DNA of 44,851 nt from a virus. Numbering within the stretch: the stretch's first letter is position 1; every line of letters begins with the position of its first letter. The position numbers and the translations under genes were made by a program. Below are positions 36,389 through 44,734 of this stretch, piece by piece. Under the pieces are notes generated by a model that was not told the DNA's origin, made no database searches, and saw only the letters and a list, made by a program, of their open reading frames with translations. Location of the stretch: IMG/VR virus record IMGVR_UViG_3300046721_000135, positions 1 to 44,851 of that record. The stretch is one strand, 5' to 3'.

Positions 36389-36618
36389 CCTTGCTCCTTG
36401 GCCCTTTCAGCCAGCATGGCATCTGCCACTTGATAGGCAAGACCTGAACTACCTATGCAAACTGATTCCCATCCCTGCGGAGCTGCATTATGCTTCAGTG
36501 CCTCAAAACAATGACCTATTACCATTCCTGCAAACCAGTCCCGCAGGGTCATGCCTGAATGAATCCCAATTCTGGAAGTTACCGGATCATATGGAAATGC
36601 CGGACCACCATTGTTCAT
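36385..36618 (-). CDS. Conserved small phage protein (GMTLRDWFA family), 77 aa
   Basis: The motif GIHSGMTLRDWFAGMVIGHC and the end AYQVADAMLAERAKEQG match a common phage protein family (GMTLRDYFA...YxxADAMLxxR). Its function is unknown; it is usually in early or replication-region operons. The start overlaps the 36-aa membrane protein as ATGA. Confidence 0.75.
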   Translation of the reverse strand: MNNGGPAFPYDPVTSRIGIHSGMTLRDWFAGMVIGHCFEALKHNAAPQGWESVCIGSSGLAYQVADAMLAERAKEQG

Positions 36619-36725
36619 CTCGGCCCCCTTGGCTTATGCTTCTCTAGCCAGATGGTTAATGCTACCAGAAAGATCCCGATCCACAACAGGTAGAACATGA
36701 AGACCCAGATGGGTTCCTTGAACAC
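36615..36725 (-). CDS. Tiny membrane protein, 36 aa
   Basis: GTG start 6 bases after GGAGG. The product MFKEPIWVFMFYLLWIGIFL continues hydrophobic and ends basic (WLEKHKPRGPR): one membrane helix with positive C-terminus. The stop overlaps the next ATG as ATGA. It is the first gene after the structured non-coding stretch 36726-36942. Confidence 0.6.
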   Translation of the reverse strand: MFKEPIWVFMFYLLWIGIFLVALTIWLEKHKPRGPR

Positions 36726-36739
36726 TTGTCACCTCCGTT

Positions 36740-36930
36740 AGGTTCCCCAGCTGGCTCAGAGGCCAAGTCGTCTAACCGGTCAGTGGATGGGATCTCAGTT
36801 ATGACCAGCTATTTCTGAGCATCCACCGTTAGTACGGAGCTTGACATGTCCAGCTGGAGGTTACACCGGGTCTCGGCCAGGGACGGCCCAGGCTGGAGAC
36901 TGGTCAAATGACAAACCAGGAGACCCGGTA
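36740..36930 (-). other. Structured non-coding region with multiple inverted repeats
   Basis: The interval between two minus-strand genes contains: a 10-bp stem ACCGGGTCTC (36865-36874) / GAGACCCGGT (36920-36929), which closes two smaller hairpins (GGCC/GGCC at 36875-36888 and CTGGT/ACCAG at 36900-36919); a second hairpin GTGGATG (36783-36789) / CATCCAC (36820-36826) with inner CTCAG/CTGAG; and two copies of the palindrome CCAGCTGG (36747-36754, 36850-36857). No ORF was seen here. It could be a structured RNA in the operon transcript or a DNA site. Confidence 0.6.
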
Positions 36931-36942
36931 GCTTGTGGCTGG

Positions 36943-37101
36943 TCAGGCTTTGGCAGCTTCAACCAGCTTGGGTTTGCGCTTCACATAGACCTTGGGCGTA
37001 TTATACTCGTCTAACACCTTGAAGATCGAATTCGATTTCTCCAGACCCAACTCCCTGATGGCTTCCACCAGCTTCTGTTCTGCGGTTTTCTTCCGGCTCA
37101 T
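36943..37101 (-). CDS. Small basic helical protein, 52 aa
   Basis: MSRKKTAEQKLVEAIRELGL continues with a basic tail. GAGGAG lies 6 bases upstream of the ATG, and ATGA overlap links it to the gene before. Function unknown; charge suggests nucleic-acid contact. Confidence 0.6.
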   Translation of the reverse strand: MSRKKTAEQKLVEAIRELGLEKSNSIFKVLDEYNTPKVYVKRKPKLVEAAKA

Positions 37102-37316
37102 CGCTTTCTCCTCTCAATTTTAAGACGGCTATCTTCCACTTCAATCACTCGTTCAAGCACCGGGATCACAGTAGTCAGCATCTCGTACAAATCATTGGCC
37201 AGCTTAAGATGCTTCTTCATGCTCACAATCCTAGTTGTATCCAAAACAGTCTGGGCAAACTCTTCGGGATGTCGTTCATGGTAAGGAGCAACGGGCTTGC
37301 GCGGTTTCCTCGTCAC
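37098..37316 (-). CDS. Small helical phage protein, 72 aa
   Basis: GTG start, GAGGAG 6 bases upstream, and GTGA overlap with the preceding gene. Mostly one long amphipathic helix (KKHLKLANDLYEMLTTVIPV) with basic ends. Its helical part resembles that of the next gene (LKEYIKLTDDLIHILI), so the two may be distant paralogues. Confidence 0.65.
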   Translation of the reverse strand: MTRKPRKPVAPYHERHPEEFAQTVLDTTRIVSMKKHLKLANDLYEMLTTVIPVLERVIEVEDSRLKIERRKR

Positions 37317-39766: not shown

Positions 39767-40147
39767 TTAAACGTCTGGTTCAACGACTACTTCAAACTGC
39801 TGACTGACTGATTTATATCCTGGTGGGCGATGGTGTTTCAAATGGCAAGAACGGCATATCCTCTCAAGGTTATCGAGGCTGTTGTTCTTCCAATCATTGT
39901 CTTTGTGGTGAATATCCATCTTAGTTACCCTGCCGCATCGCTCACACGCTCCTTCGTCTTTGATAATTCTCGCCCTGTAATGACCGGAGGCCCAAGAAGC
40001 GACTGGCTTTGTTAATCTTTGCCTAGTAAAGGATTTTCCCATACAGATTTGGCCGCAATACTTTTGCTTACTGGACAAGTAATCACTTCTGGTCTTAATT
40101 GTTTTACCACAAACAGCGCATTGATTTGGTATGGGTCTATGACGCAT
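39767..40147 (-). CDS. HNH endonuclease
   Basis: The 126-aa protein has two N-terminal cysteine pairs (CAVCGK, then YCGQIC) and a classical HNH core: GACERCGRVTKMDIHHKDND, followed by NLERICRSCHLKHH. The two His and Asn act at the metal active site; four Cys bind zinc. It may be a free-standing homing-type nuclease or a phage recombination/packaging nuclease. Its start (ATG 40147, AAGG upstream) overlaps the end of the Cas4-like gene by 11 bases, which argues for a settled operon member rather than a very recent insertion. Confidence 0.85.
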   Translation of the reverse strand: MRHRPIPNQCAVCGKTIKTRSDYLSSKQKYCGQICMGKSFTRQRLTKPVASWASGHYRARIIKDEGACERCGRVTKMDIHHKDNDWKNNSLDNLERICRSCHLKHHRPPGYKSVSQQFEVVVEPDV

Positions 40148-40982
40148 CAAATTCACCTTCGACCACTACACTGAATTCTTTTGGCTGAGGGTCAGTAGTG
40201 TATAAAGATTGTCTAACTTCTTCATCATCACCACTTACGCAAATTTCGAAGTATTCACAAGAGCTGCACTGCCAGCCGAGATGCTTTGGATAGATGCTGG
40301 ACTTCTCACAGTGCCTAATCAAGCCTTCCCATTCAGCCTGGCTGCGCTCCCAGAAATCTATCTGCTGGGGTGTTCGCTGCACCACCAACCGCTCAAACTT
40401 GCAGTGCCAGCCAGCCGGTTCCCCCTTATAGGCGCGCTGTCTGAAGCCTGGAACGATGGTATTGACCACCGCCCCAGCACAATCTCCCCATTTCTGTCTG
40501 ACAAACGAGATATAGCGTGTGAGTTGAGCATCCAGCTCATACCTACGCTCCGCACCCCACGGCATCTTGGCTTTAAACTTGTGATCGAACAGGTAGACTG
40601 AGCCGGTTTGTCGATGGCGAGCGACCAGATCAATGATGAGATTGGGATGTTCAGGAGCCGGCGGATCTTGCAACTCAACCTCAAGGATTTCCCACTGCCT
40701 ATCGATCTCAGCATAGTAGGCAACATAGGCTTCCAGCGTATGAAAGCCACCTTCCCTGGTCCAGACCTGATTTAACGGGTCCAGGTCTTCCGGGTAACTG
40801 TCTGAGAAGGCCCTGTCCTTGTCCTGTCCCAGGTAATGCGCTTCTAAGCCGGAGTGCATAGCCTTCCCCCACATGGCAAAGTTAGACTCTGCGCCTGTGG
40901 TGATTTTGGCCAACCCTTCCTTGTGGAGAGAGTAGGCAAATGGACAGGTATTAAACCGCTGGGTAGAGCTATGGCTAGTCAT
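40137..40982 (-). CDS. Cas4-like PD-(D/E)XK exonuclease with Fe-S cysteines
   Basis: The 281-aa product fits the RecB/Cas4 nuclease group. The first Cys is at residue 13 (FNTCPFAY), with three more in CSSCEYFEIC near 239-248: four possible ligands for a 4Fe-4S cluster. Active-site features are H43 (GKAMHSGLEAH), IIDLVARH near 118, DHKFK near 131 and the QLTRYISF helix. Such nucleases produce single-stranded ends for the Sak4-like partner. AAGGAG lies 4 bases before the ATG. No cas1 or repeat array is present, so a recombination role is more likely than CRISPR adaptation. Confidence 0.8.
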   Translation of the reverse strand: MTSHSSTQRFNTCPFAYSLHKEGLAKITTGAESNFAMWGKAMHSGLEAHYLGQDKDRAFSDSYPEDLDPLNQVWTREGGFHTLEAYVAYYAEIDRQWEILEVELQDPPAPEHPNLIIDLVARHRQTGSVYLFDHKFKAKMPWGAERRYELDAQLTRYISFVRQKWGDCAGAVVNTIVPGFRQRAYKGEPAGWHCKFERLVVQRTPQQIDFWERSQAEWEGLIRHCEKSSIYPKHLGWQCSSCEYFEICVSGDDEEVRQSLYTTDPQPKEFSVVVEGEFDAS

Positions 40983-41131
40983 GGGGCTCCTTGCGGCCAG
41001 AAGATGGCCAAGACAAACATCAGCAGAACGATAGCCACCAGCAGACCAAACCTCGCTACGCTCGGAACAGACAAAAGCTGTTCCTCGCTACAACTTACCA
41101 TCCTATTTACCATCTGATCAGCAGCTTTCAT
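40979..41131 (-). CDS. Tiny single-TM protein, 50 aa
   Basis: MKAADQMVNRMVSCSEEQLL is followed by a clear membrane helix (FGLLVAIVLLMFVLAIFW). GGGGAG lies 5 bases before the ATG. It is joined to both neighbours by ATGA overlaps (41128-41131 and 40979-40982), which strongly supports translation. Function unknown. Confidence 0.6.
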   Translation of the reverse strand: MKAADQMVNRMVSCSEEQLLSVPSVARFGLLVAIVLLMFVLAIFWPQGAP

Positions 41132-41352
41132 CTCGGCTCCCCGATCTCAGCCTCAGGGTTGGGACTGACATAGATCAAGCGCCGTATAGCTTCCCGCCCC
41201 AGGTTAGCCAGATGCAGCCCCATCTGAGCAGCCACGATCTTGGCATCCCTGGCCTCTTGCGCCGTCAAGTAGATGGTGACCCTGGTCTTCATCCCCGGAT
41301 CCACTATCTTGACAATAGACTTCGGGGTTTTCAACTCCATCAGCTTAGTCAT
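41128..41352 (-). CDS. Ribbon-helix-helix candidate regulator, 74 aa
   Basis: The middle part has a short strand (TRVTIYLT) and two helices (AQEARDAKIVAAQMG; LANLGREAIRRLIYV) in the order of a ribbon-helix-helix DNA-binding domain. GAGGA lies 5 bases before ATG 41352; the nine extra N-terminal residues of the longer ORF were trimmed. It would likely bind palindromic operators as a dimer, perhaps in the nearby divergent promoter region or the TGACA repeats. Assignment is by fold pattern only. Confidence 0.5.
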   Translation of the reverse strand: MTKLMELKTPKSIVKIVDPGMKTRVTIYLTAQEARDAKIVAAQMGLHLANLGREAIRRLIYVSPNPEAEIGEPR

Positions 41353-41557
41353 ACCGTTCCTCTTTGCACTCGTATTCATGAACCTTGGCTGCGAGTTCCA
41401 TCTCTTCCCCAGTAGCTACCTGATACAACTCCCACAACGTCTTGATATGTTCAACCGTTGGGGTAATCAACTGGTTTCCTTCTGCAATCATCTTGCACTC
41501 GACAATCACCTGATACAACTTAGACTCCGCTTCCTTCTGCCTGCCAGTTGCTTCCAT
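41345..41557 (-). CDS. Small helical protein, first gene of early operon, 70 aa
   Basis: ATG 41557 follows GGGAGG by 5 bases. The product is a run of charged helices (GRQKEAESKLYQVIVECKMI ... LWELYQVATGEEMELAAKVH). It is promoter-proximal, about 28 bases after the -10 of the minus promoter, and overlaps the RHH candidate by 8 bases. Function unknown. Confidence 0.65.
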   Translation of the reverse strand: MEATGRQKEAESKLYQVIVECKMIAEGNQLITPTVEHIKTLWELYQVATGEEMELAAKVHEYECKEERYD

Positions 41558-41584
41558 ATGAACCTCCCTATCAAACACCTGCAA

Positions 41585-41613
41585 TGATAAACTTACGCTA
41601 TGAACCTTGTCAA
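41585..41613 (-). promoter_or_regulatory. Sigma70-like promoter for recombination/early operon
   Basis: On the minus strand TTGACA (41608-41613), a 17-base spacer, then TTATCA (41585-41590). It points at the gene starting at 41557. The -35 is consensus; the -10 is a fair match. Confidence 0.65.
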
Positions 41614-41641
41614 TAGGCTATTTCACCCACTGGGAATTATG

Positions 41642-41669
41642 TTGACACTTTGACCCATTTAAGTAGTAT
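41642..41669 (+). promoter_or_regulatory. Sigma70-like promoter for replication unit
   Basis: TTGACA (41642-41647), a 16-base spacer, and TAGTAT (41664-41669). The transcript would start near 41676 and carry an approximately 85-base leader containing the paired repeats at 41710-41751 before the ATG at 41762. Confidence 0.65.
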
Positions 41670-41761: not shown

Positions 41762-42622
41762 ATGTCCTATCTGATTGACAAAATCGTTCCAAAACATCAA
41801 GTCCATATCATCAATGGTCCTAGCGGAGTAGGCAAAACTCGCTGGATTGTCTGGCTACATAGTGACTGGAAGGAAGGAAAGCCAGTCCTCGGATATGAAT
41901 CATTCCCCGTTCCAGCTCTCTACATTGCCAAGGATCGCAACCAAGACTCGCTTGATTTGACCTTCAAGAGCATTAACGCTGAACATACCATCGAACATAA
42001 ATCGCTTCTCTATGACAAGAAAACCAAGATTGAAAACCTTGCCGAGAGCTTCCCAGATTACAAACTGTTTTACTTAGATCCGATTGTCAAGTTCATGGTT
42101 CCTTGTCGAATTAATGACTATGGAGCTGTAAGCGATTTCCTTAGTGAATGCTCTGAATACTGCCAGCGCGATAAGATAACAATCTATGGAACCTGCCATG
42201 CGCCTAAAAAGAAAGAGGGGCAGAACTACGAGAATCCACGCGAATGGACACTCGGTTCAGGTGCTTGGGGCGGTTATTCAGAAACCATGTTCTCGCTGAA
42301 TGGAGACGATCTACAAACCCCAAACTCAACACGTTACTTTTACGTTCTCCCCCGCAACGCCAGGGAGGATAAATACTATTTCAGACTGGAGGACGGTTGG
42401 GTTACTTTGGTCGATGATCCGAAGCAATTAGAACTCTATCAACAATTCATTGAGTTGATACCGGAGAATCAAACCAATTCACGCGCCGACTTGGTTAAGA
42501 TAGTTGCTCGACTTGGCGGGTCTGTTAGTAATTTCGATAGAGACTATCTTTACAAAGCTGACAAAGACGGCTATTTGAAACTATTCAAGCGCGGGCAATA
42601 CATTAAGCTAAAACCAGCGTGA
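41762..42622 (+). CDS. RepA-like replicative helicase/ATPase
   Basis: The 286-aa protein has Walker A GPSGVGKT (19-26), Walker B LFYLD (102-106), and a later GTCHAPKKKEGQ...GSGAWGGYSETMF stretch, typical of the RecA-fold RepA/AAA_25 hexameric helicase group used by plasmids and phages for replication. The last 60 residues have a winged-helix-like pattern (SRADLVKIVARLGGSVSNFD). It could unwind or initiate replication at the adjacent repeat region. The upstream leader suggests RNA-level control. With no phage polymerase found, it would recruit host replication proteins. Confidence 0.75.
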   Translation: MSYLIDKIVPKHQVHIINGPSGVGKTRWIVWLHSDWKEGKPVLGYESFPVPALYIAKDRNQDSLDLTFKSINAEHTIEHKSLLYDKKTKIENLAESFPDYKLFYLDPIVKFMVPCRINDYGAVSDFLSECSEYCQRDKITIYGTCHAPKKKEGQNYENPREWTLGSGAWGGYSETMFSLNGDDLQTPNSTRYFYVLPRNAREDKYYFRLEDGWVTLVDDPKQLELYQQFIELIPENQTNSRADLVKIVARLGGSVSNFDRDYLYKADKDGYLKLFKRGQYIKLKPA

Positions 42623-42640
42623 CCCCCTCATAGGTGTAGA

Positions 42641-42824
42641 ATATGACAGAAACTATGCCGTTTTGTCATATGACAAAAGATGACAAATTGGTTTAAACCT
42701 ATTGTAACCAATGGTTTACGAGGAGTTTCTGTCATATATATATACCTATATCACTATTAATTAAAAGAATCAACGACTTGACTGAAATATGACCAAAAAT
42801 TGACAATTTGTCATGGATGACAGA
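42641..42824. repeat. TGACA-rich inverted-repeat region (candidate origin or operator)
   Basis: Between the helicase and the next gene lie: ATATGACAGAAACT (42641-42654) and its perfect inverse AGTTTCTGTCATAT (42724-42737); the 18-bp palindrome TTTTGTCATATGACAAAA (42661-42678); ATTGGTT/AACCAAT (42688-42694, 42706-42712) with an inner GGTTTAAACC palindrome; and TGACAATTTGTCA (42801-42813). The core TGACA appears at least eight times on both strands, next to an AT-rich stretch (42736-42775). Iteron-like content beside a replication gene fits an origin, or an operator for an autoregulator. Confidence 0.6.
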
Positions 42825-42836
42825 AAGGTGACTGAA

Positions 42837-43184
42837 ATGCCATACCCTGAACGCAGCAAAATAGGTCCGTGGGGAAAGTGGGAATTTGATCCTGAAATGT
42901 TGGTTATCCGCTGGACTGGCAGAGGTATATATGAGTTTGATTTGGAAGGAATGTCTAGTTCCAGGGCAATACTAGACATGATCTTTCAGCTCAATGGTCA
43001 CATTGATGCAGTCTTTACCAGAGAAGACATGGGATACTTACTTGAGGCCATTGAAAGGCTACTGAACCCGCAAGGAAACTATTGTGGAGCAAGTACCTAC
43101 TACAATCCAATGACACCTGAGAAACATAAGAAACTAATGAAATCATTGTCTAAGGATGGACAGTTAGTTAATTTGAAGGAGTGA
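42837..43184 (+). CDS. Conserved phage protein of unknown function, 115 aa
   Basis: AAAGGTG lies 6 bases before ATG 42837; an ATG at 42813 has no ribosome-binding site and falls inside the repeat array. The pattern WEFDPEMLVIRWTGRGIYEF, DLEGMSSSRAILDMIFQLNG and YLLEAIERLLNPQGN matches a family frequent in phages and mobile elements (W-x-Y/F-x-PEMLV ... DWIFQ), whose function is unknown. Followed directly by a terminator. Confidence 0.7.
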   Translation: MPYPERSKIGPWGKWEFDPEMLVIRWTGRGIYEFDLEGMSSSRAILDMIFQLNGHIDAVFTREDMGYLLEAIERLLNPQGNYCGASTYYNPMTPEKHKKLMKSLSKDGQLVNLKE

Positions 43185-43732: not shown

Positions 43733-44002
43733 TCATGATGGATAGATCTGGTTTGCTATCTGGTTCAGACAGGTATCACACAGCCACTTGCCAAAGAGGT
43801 CACTGTAATACTTAGCTGGTTGACCACAGTAACAGTGATTGACCTCTTCCAAGGCTAATTTACTACCGTGATACCAGAAAGCCAGCCTGGGGCAATCTCG
43901 CAACGATACGAGGCATTTCCCATCGGCTCCATACTCCAGGATATCGACTGGTTGACCGTTGAGTTCAGGATCGGTACTTCTAATCGTACAGGTTATAGAC
44001 AT
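43733..44002 (-). CDS. Small zinc-binding phage protein, 89 aa
   Basis: ATG 44002 follows GAGGAG by 6 bases; the 17-residue extension was trimmed. N-terminal part resembles the adjacent shorter gene. The C-terminal part has CYCGQPAKYYSDLFGKWLC and DTCLNQ: four cysteines in two CxC/CxxC-like pairs, a zinc ribbon. Function unknown. Confidence 0.65.
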   Translation of the reverse strand: MSITCTIRSTDPELNGQPVDILEYGADGKCLVSLRDCPRLAFWYHGSKLALEEVNHCYCGQPAKYYSDLFGKWLCDTCLNQIANQIYPS

Positions 44003-44058
44003 TTGTTTCTCCTCTTGACATAGATTTCCTTGCGTTATGGCTGAAAGATTCAACCTTG

Positions 44059-44377: not shown

Positions 44378-44734
44378 TTAAGCAACGTTGCTTTGGTTGG
44401 TGCTTATGGTGTAGCCGTCGAAGTAAACCTGCTCACTGCCACTTTCACGATCCCAGACAAACCATTGAAACTTCTTTTGAAAGACTGAATAGCCGCTATT
44501 GCGCAAGCAACGGTTCATCCTATCCTTGGTGGTAACAGTTTCCCACCCACCACTTCTAAGCACAATCCTTCCATCCAGGTGAAAAGTAACCACATTGGTT
44601 GAATGGTAGCGCAATGCAATCGTGTCTTCATTGAGTCTTTCAAGCGAGGTATTGCAACATATGGTTCTGGATTCCCGCTTACCTAACAGTGAGCTTGCTT
44701 GCCAGTAACTGCTTGGGATATCTTTTCGTGTCAT
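44378..44734 (-). CDS. Conserved phage protein of unknown function, 118 aa
   Basis: The protein order SLLGKRESRTICCNTSLERL, DTIALRYHSTNVVTFHLDGR, LRSGGWETVTTKDRMNRCLR and F(V)WDRESG...FDGYTI matches a family widely found in phages (the N-T-x-V-x-F ... D-G-x-I-x-L-x-S-G-G-W-x-T-V-T-T-K pattern). GGAG lies 7 bases before the ATG. It belongs to the operon beginning near 674 across the junction. Confidence 0.75.
   Translation of the reverse strand: MTRKDIPSSYWQASSLLGKRESRTICCNTSLERLNEDTIALRYHSTNVVTFHLDGRIVLRSGGWETVTTKDRMNRCLRNSGYSVFQKKFQWFVWDRESGSEQVYFDGYTISTNQSNVA

Follow-up and report, generated by a model that had tools for sequence, protein, structure and literature searches.

A cluster of iteron-like sites behind a RepA-like ATPase gene: a candidate replication origin that changes together with the ATPase between related phages

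What is the role of a dense cluster of short palindromic repeats that lies directly behind a RepA-like ATPase gene in a phage genome? Origins of uncultivated phages are seldom known, and the original prediction for this locus offered two answers: iterons for the initiation of phage replication, or binding sites for a candidate RHH protein encoded nearby. We examined the locus within the window, i.e. the whole 44,851-base record (G000), which looks like a complete tailed-phage contig, with an identical 127 bases at its start and end. Terminase, portal, scaffold and major head protein genes lie on the plus strand, and early genes (Sak4, HNH, PD-(D/E)XK exonuclease, RusA) run leftward from 41.6 kb. 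The leftward operon has a sigma70-like promoter on the minus strand at 41584-41613 (TTGACA-18-TATCAT, 11 of 12 consensus matches), and the ATPase gene has one on the plus strand at 41642-41669 (TTGACA-16-TAGTAT, 10 of 12 matches); both hexamers of the former are also present in a relative, G001, where the TTGACA...TAGTAT of the latter is likewise readable. The stretch between these divergent early promoters (41584-41669) is largely common to the two phages. The RHH protein is encoded at 41128-41379. The HNH endonuclease gene (39767-40156), between Sak4 and the exonuclease, has no match in G001 and is possibly a homing-type insertion; near the right end of the window, a small protein (44378-44734) matches Kyanoviridae Gp96 (PF23790, E 5e-11).

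The repeats are as dense as had been predicted. Eight exact TGACA/TGTCA cores (at least eight had been claimed) fall within 42641-42824, on the plus strand at 42644, 42671, 42681, 42801 and 42818 and on the minus strand at 42664, 42730 and 42809, and a ninth site is degenerate (TGACC at 42790). This density exceeds chance: 5000 dinucleotide shuffles of 42641-42824 gave a mean of 1.04 and a maximum of 5 cores, and every 184-bp window elsewhere in the record has three or fewer. At a scale of 200 bp, no 6-mer of the window is clustered more densely than ATGACA, which has 7 copies in the cluster compared with 22 in the whole record. Alignment of the sites gives anAtATGACAaAa, with nine sites on both strands in two groups (42643-42735 and 42789-42822). 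The left group (42641-42737), of the form ATATGACA(A/G)AA, has sites at 42643+, 42664-, 42670+, 42680+ and 42730-; the right group (42786-42826) has them at 42789+ (the TGACC site), 42800+, 42809- and 42817+, and within each group many sites are 6-11 bp apart. The original prediction had also described an 18-bp perfect palindrome, which is TTTTGTCATATGACAAAA at 42661-42678, two sites head to head, and a 14-bp inverted repeat, which is likewise perfect (42641-42654 and 42724-42737). Its statement that no gene explains the pattern holds for 42623-42812; the last site (42817-42822) lies inside ORF 42813-43184 only if the first ATG is used, and a start at 42837 instead would leave this site outside. 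This small plus-strand ORF (42837-43184 in its shorter form), which lies outside the core unit, was present in one of six records searched, the window itself, with no match in G001 and four further records. Rfam and tRNA scans were empty, and the DNA of the locus had no match in the phage collection. A further, possibly conserved element, AAAATAGG..TCCG..GGGG, found at window position 42858 and at the start of the G001 contig, was rejected as chance level (0.117 of 300 shuffles reach it).

The gene-free 190 bp behind the ATPase stop codon contain 32% G+C, compared with 52% for the record. The predicted AT-rich stretch is real: in windows of 40, 60 and 100 bp alike, the record has its highest AT content in the cluster region, and the AT-richest 40 bp (42734-42773, 85% AT) lie between the two site groups and are a candidate DNA unwinding element. 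The 14-bp inverted repeat is the arm of a potential stem-loop or cruciform of ∼120 nt (42630-42749, from single-strand folding) that is made of the inverted sites and had been missed as such. The fold z is -6.9 for 42623-42760, the strongest of 895 windows (150 nt) of the record. Because inverted sites make a fold expected, we do not count this foldback as independent evidence. The GC skew, proposed with the original prediction as a check, was uninformative and lent no support to an origin.

The neighbor of the cluster is a RepA-like ATPase, as had been claimed. The plus-strand gene 41762-42622 encodes a P-loop ATPase of 286 aa that matches AAA_25 (PF13481; Pfam E 1.3e-11) with 44.9 bits against a curated cut-off of 27; the G001 counterpart, scored with its neighbors in frame, reaches 28.4 bits. 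The other Pfam match of the window ATPase, NACHT, is sub-threshold only, and the PHROG_239 primase/helicase family matches it at E 1.3e-9, covering only positions 467-611 of 801. The protein is a putative origin initiator-helicase or helicase loader. Its C-terminal ∼70 aa (42410-42622) form a proposed helix-turn-helix or winged-helix DNA-binding domain, which gave no Pfam match at a meaningful score. The G001 counterpart of this domain was modeled with three main helices (pLDDT 67), and its structural matches were rich in helix-turn-helix, homeodomain-type folds, at weak scores (E > 0.8, Z about 5) that a small helical bundle can yield by chance. The full-length ATPase model had a pLDDT of 37, and the ATPase profile had no significant match among PDB sequences. 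No primase, polymerase or other replication initiator was recognized among the early ORFs scanned with Pfam, PHROGs and NCBIfam, some of them with only part of these libraries, in scans that small diverged initiators can escape; the phage would therefore lean on host enzymes.

Which protein, then, would read the repeats? The sole close relative found, G001 (IMGVR_UViG_3300046713_000202; 44,650 bases), is informative here. Over most of their length the two phages resemble each other, with most compared proteins 86-100% identical: RHH 100% (83/83), TerL 98%, RusA 97%, portal 93%, MCP 93%, a 79-aa protein 89%, exonuclease 86% and Sak4 86%. Four of 14 window proteins tested have no G001 match (HNH and the products of ORFs 42813, 43273 and 44059). 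DNA similarity breaks off shortly after the start of the ATPase gene, 17 nt in (window position 41778), and returns at 43868, and the gene at this right border of the exchange (43733-44053) is 67% identical. In the same place G001 has an ATPase of 297 aa, compared with 286 aa, that is ∼25% identical. As a separate observation, about 320 bp of the minus-strand early operon (36617-36935) are nearly identical in G001, while the flanks are poorly alignable or much less alike. This stretch has no ORF of at least 60 aa, a possible 36-aa membrane peptide from a GTG start, a strong DNA foldback near 36801 (150-nt windows, z -4.6), RNA folds that are not significant over 36615-37120 (z -1.65 and -0.78), and no meaningful Rfam or phage-collection match; it is perhaps a structured leader, a noncoding RNA or a recent exchange.

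Directly behind its ATPase gene, G001 has the densest 6/7-mer cluster of its record, also in both orientations but with a different word, RTGCAGAA versus ATGACARA in the window locus. ATGACARA has 7 of its 10 genome copies in the window locus, and neither of its 2 G001 copies is in the G001 locus; RTGCAGAA has 6 of 8 copies in the G001 locus, and neither of its 2 window copies is in the window locus. Seven G001 sites, C(A/G)TGCAGAAG, fall within the final 150 bp of its contig (three leftward, three rightward and one more leftward), and the other contig end has four TTGCAG words at 69-107 and one at 214. The two words differ by one inserted base, ATGACAGAA / ATGCAGAA (ATG-A-CAGAA versus ATG-CAGAA), a similarity that fits two related readers and leaves room for one tolerant reader. 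The 40- and 60-bp AT maxima are at the ATPase-adjacent locus in both genomes, with the G001 maximum for 100- and 190-bp windows located elsewhere (about 1.7 kb), and the G001 foldback behind the ATPase has z -5.75, rank 2 of 890 windows. Poly-G runs stand at or near both G001 contig ends, close behind a stretch common to both (AAAAATAGGTAT); because of this arrangement, and because the flanking genes fit, we infer that the two ends are neighbors. The poly-G break inside the cluster is probably a sequencing or assembly break, and the G001 cluster may therefore be incomplete or partly misassembled. The next gene after it (116-376) is on the minus strand, which would place the cluster between convergent genes.

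Because the ATPase and the word differ while RHH is identical, the repeats change with the ATPase and not with RHH. An RHH protein identical in both phages would thus be a poor reader of two words, and the ATPase, exchanged with the repeats, is the best candidate. This covariation, together with the recurrence of AT-richness and a stem-loop in G001, strengthens the proposal of iterons for replication initiation, and the ATPase and the putative origin seem to have been swapped between related phages as one cassette. The covariation comes from one genome pair, because the searches yielded only G001, and a single exchange would look the same whether the ATPase reads the sites or the two were inherited jointly on one segment.

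With the window ATPase as query, no relative was found in IMG/VR, GTDB genomes, plasmids or phages at 1e-5; when the phage search was relaxed to E 1, a single Microbacterium phage appeared at 0.05 with two records, in which the protein is annotated as primase. The G001 ATPase matched nothing in the phage search, and it and RHH, used as queries, returned only the G001 record. A two-row alignment of both ATPases found only G001 in IMG/VR, matched none of 10 further viral records, and against 19 records gave G001 plus two weak, unrelated-looking matches. Records reached via the capsid and portal genes were set aside as relatives, being too distant or without this ATPase. AAA_25 was present in eight of 40 records searched, G000 and G001 included, in a scan that covered part of the loci reached through these genes. 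In two of the eight, G005 and G033, an organizer-like gene precedes the helicase gene, either immediately or at a distance of one gene, and contains direct repeats (GAAGCAAAACGAAGCAA in G005, locus L123; CGAACGCAACCGAACGCAA in G033, locus L118); an organizer-like gene with internal repeats upstream of a helicase is a lambda-O-like arrangement. As a control, we compared eight loci in total, taking 220 nt downstream of the gene at each (215 nt in G001). All six other AAA_25-matching phage genes, one of which (L124) is a weak match whose frame looks like a terminase by eye, lack dense words and a foldback (fold z -1.85 to +1.31; top 6-mer 2-4 copies), while the window and G001 both have them (z -5.5 and -5.1; 7 and 6 copies).

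At iteron origins, multiple sites and an AT-rich stretch together with a RepA/DnaB-like ATPase suggest binding, melting and helicase entry. The window has this layout, with multiple short sites and an AT-rich stretch beside the gene of the putative initiator ATPase, and we consider it reasonably probable that replication starts at this cluster and that the cognate AAA_25/RepA-like ATPase reads its iteron-like sites. The ATPase binding, melting, helicase activity and origin activity at the cluster that this reading implies would proceed as follows. The ATPase would be made from its early promoter and would bind the approximately nine iteron-like sites (ATATGACARAA), in both orientations, probably through its C-terminal helix-turn-helix-like domain. 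The site-bound ATPase would oligomerize, and the AT-rich stretch between the site groups would melt, with the inverted sites perhaps extruding as a stem-loop. Either the ATPase itself or a host helicase that it loads could then enter the single strands, after which a host polymerase would take over, with later help from the phage exonuclease, RusA and Sak4, the last of these being described in part of PMC5499656 as needed for phage replication.

The sites could instead be an operator array that binds a phage repressor (RHH or the product of ORF 42813-43184) and regulates either the early operon or the small gene that follows the cluster. An 18-bp perfect palindrome suits a dimeric repressor, the rightmost sites extend over the start of ORF 42813-43184, and weak promoter-like matches overlap the sites (9 in the region versus 5.3 expected in shuffles). 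However, the claim that RHH binds the repeats is undercut by an RHH identical at 83/83 residues in a phage whose locus has no ATGACARA site, and the early promoters (41584-41669) are over 900 bp away. Moreover, G001 lacks a match to ORF 42837-43184, and a cluster persists there between convergent genes (given the inferred adjacency of the contig ends); because the G001 cluster has no downstream start to regulate, the operator idea is weakened, and we now regard it as unlikely. It is very improbable that the cluster is a partition or packaging site, i.e. a centromere for the ATPase/RHH pair or a phage terminus. An RHH protein plus an ATPase is the make-up of ParA/ParG-type loci, and both are present together here, but the ATPase matches AAA_25 and no ParA model, and RHH is invariant between the phages despite the changed word. 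The G001 contig does end within the cluster, yet its ends, with poly-G close behind the shared AAAAATAGGTAT, look like a sequencing or assembly break, and the window's own 127-base end repeat is located elsewhere.

Could the repeats simply be hitch-hiking, as a fast-diverging, AT-rich 3' gap that has no function at the DNA level and folds like a terminator or an mRNA end? The cluster does stand at the 3' end of a gene, and noncoding gaps diverge fast. Against this, which we think scarcely likely, stand the further copies of the word beyond the stem (42786-42826), again in both orientations, the presence in two phages of clusters of different words, and the six of six control AAA_25 genes that have no such cluster. 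There is a small chance that the locus is an origin, or a primosome or priming site, read by a host initiator or nucleoid protein, with the ATPase acting as helicase only, like RSF1010 RepA. The excerpted account in PMC4234260 describes such a division of labor for RSF1010, with RepC reading the iterons; the stem-loop might serve for single-strand priming, and the likeness of the two words would allow a single conserved or host factor to read both. But at this one position the repeats differ between phages with most other compared proteins 86-100% identical, and no RepC- or RepB'-like protein was recognized among the early ORFs scanned, although such small proteins diverge fast.

If the cluster is an origin read by its cognate ATPase, the unit may, as a tentative proposal that could well be wrong, be a minimal one-protein phage replicon: an AAA_25/RepA-like RecA-fold ATPase with its own origin-binding domain, working without a separate initiator, loader or primase, and an iteron-built stem-loop directly behind its gene, all in one exchangeable cassette. 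Among the papers listed in our literature searches, none dealt with an AAA_25 ATPase that has an iteron origin of its own downstream, which does not prove absence. It is instructive to compare this unit with known systems. A likeness to lambda O-type systems is seen in the distant relatives G005 and G033, with an initiator gene beside the helicase gene in the early region, and repeats; the lambda O-type has its iterons inside the organizer gene, whereas the window sites are intergenic, 3' of the ATPase, and no organizer-like gene was recognized in the window. The P4 alpha helicase belongs to SF3, whereas the window ATPase is AAA_25/RecA-like, and in its 286 aa the P4 alpha-type combination of primase and SF3 in one chain is not found. 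P4 alpha has a bacterial-type (Toprim) primase, and no primase domain was found in the window ATPase. The proposed likeness is that of a single protein reading short ori repeats through its C-terminal domain: the relevant part of PMC4234260 describes P4 alpha as one protein that combines an ATPase/helicase with a C-terminal winged-helix-type domain reading such repeats.

In both the window and G001 a large stem-loop follows immediately 3' of the ATPase gene, which recalls the replication genes of pRN1 (ORF904) and the BIP-1/BPP-1/BMP-1 phages. In excerpts of PMC4234260, the pRN1 stem-loop of ∼100 nt, 3' of the replication gene, is required for replication and keeps its fold with little sequence conservation; the pRN1 protein has a C-terminal winged helix, and the authors note a similar stem-loop in BIP-1-type phages. 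The same excerpts report that no specific binding of the pRN1 protein to the stem-loop region was found, a warning for the reading that the ATPase recognizes the sites here. The pRN1/BIP-1-type proteins combine an archaeo-eukaryotic-type primase with an SF3 helicase, both lacking from the window ATPase by Pfam and PHROG, and the pRN1 origin is without iterons, whereas the window stem-loop is made of repeated sites. With RSF1010 the window shares a relationship to the RepA-type hexameric helicase (AAA_25 is placed among families related to a RepA-like phage helicase in part of PMC8965321), and iterons and stem-loops at the ori; in RSF1010, however, iteron recognition and priming fall to two further proteins, RepC and RepB' respectively, and neither was recognized in the window early ORFs scanned. 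The PLE satellites of Vibrio cholerae provide a precedent for taking the joint change as a sign of a cognate initiator/ori pair: in elements that are otherwise much alike, the initiator changes together with the ori, and swaps showed the two to be cognate, according to portions of PMC8263062 and PMC7145576. The PLE initiator is a RepA_N protein with ∼30-bp semi-palindromic iterons, not an ATPase, and in the window the cognate pairing is putative. In another case, an ori is presumed to lie next to repA in phages (PMC7157519, in part).
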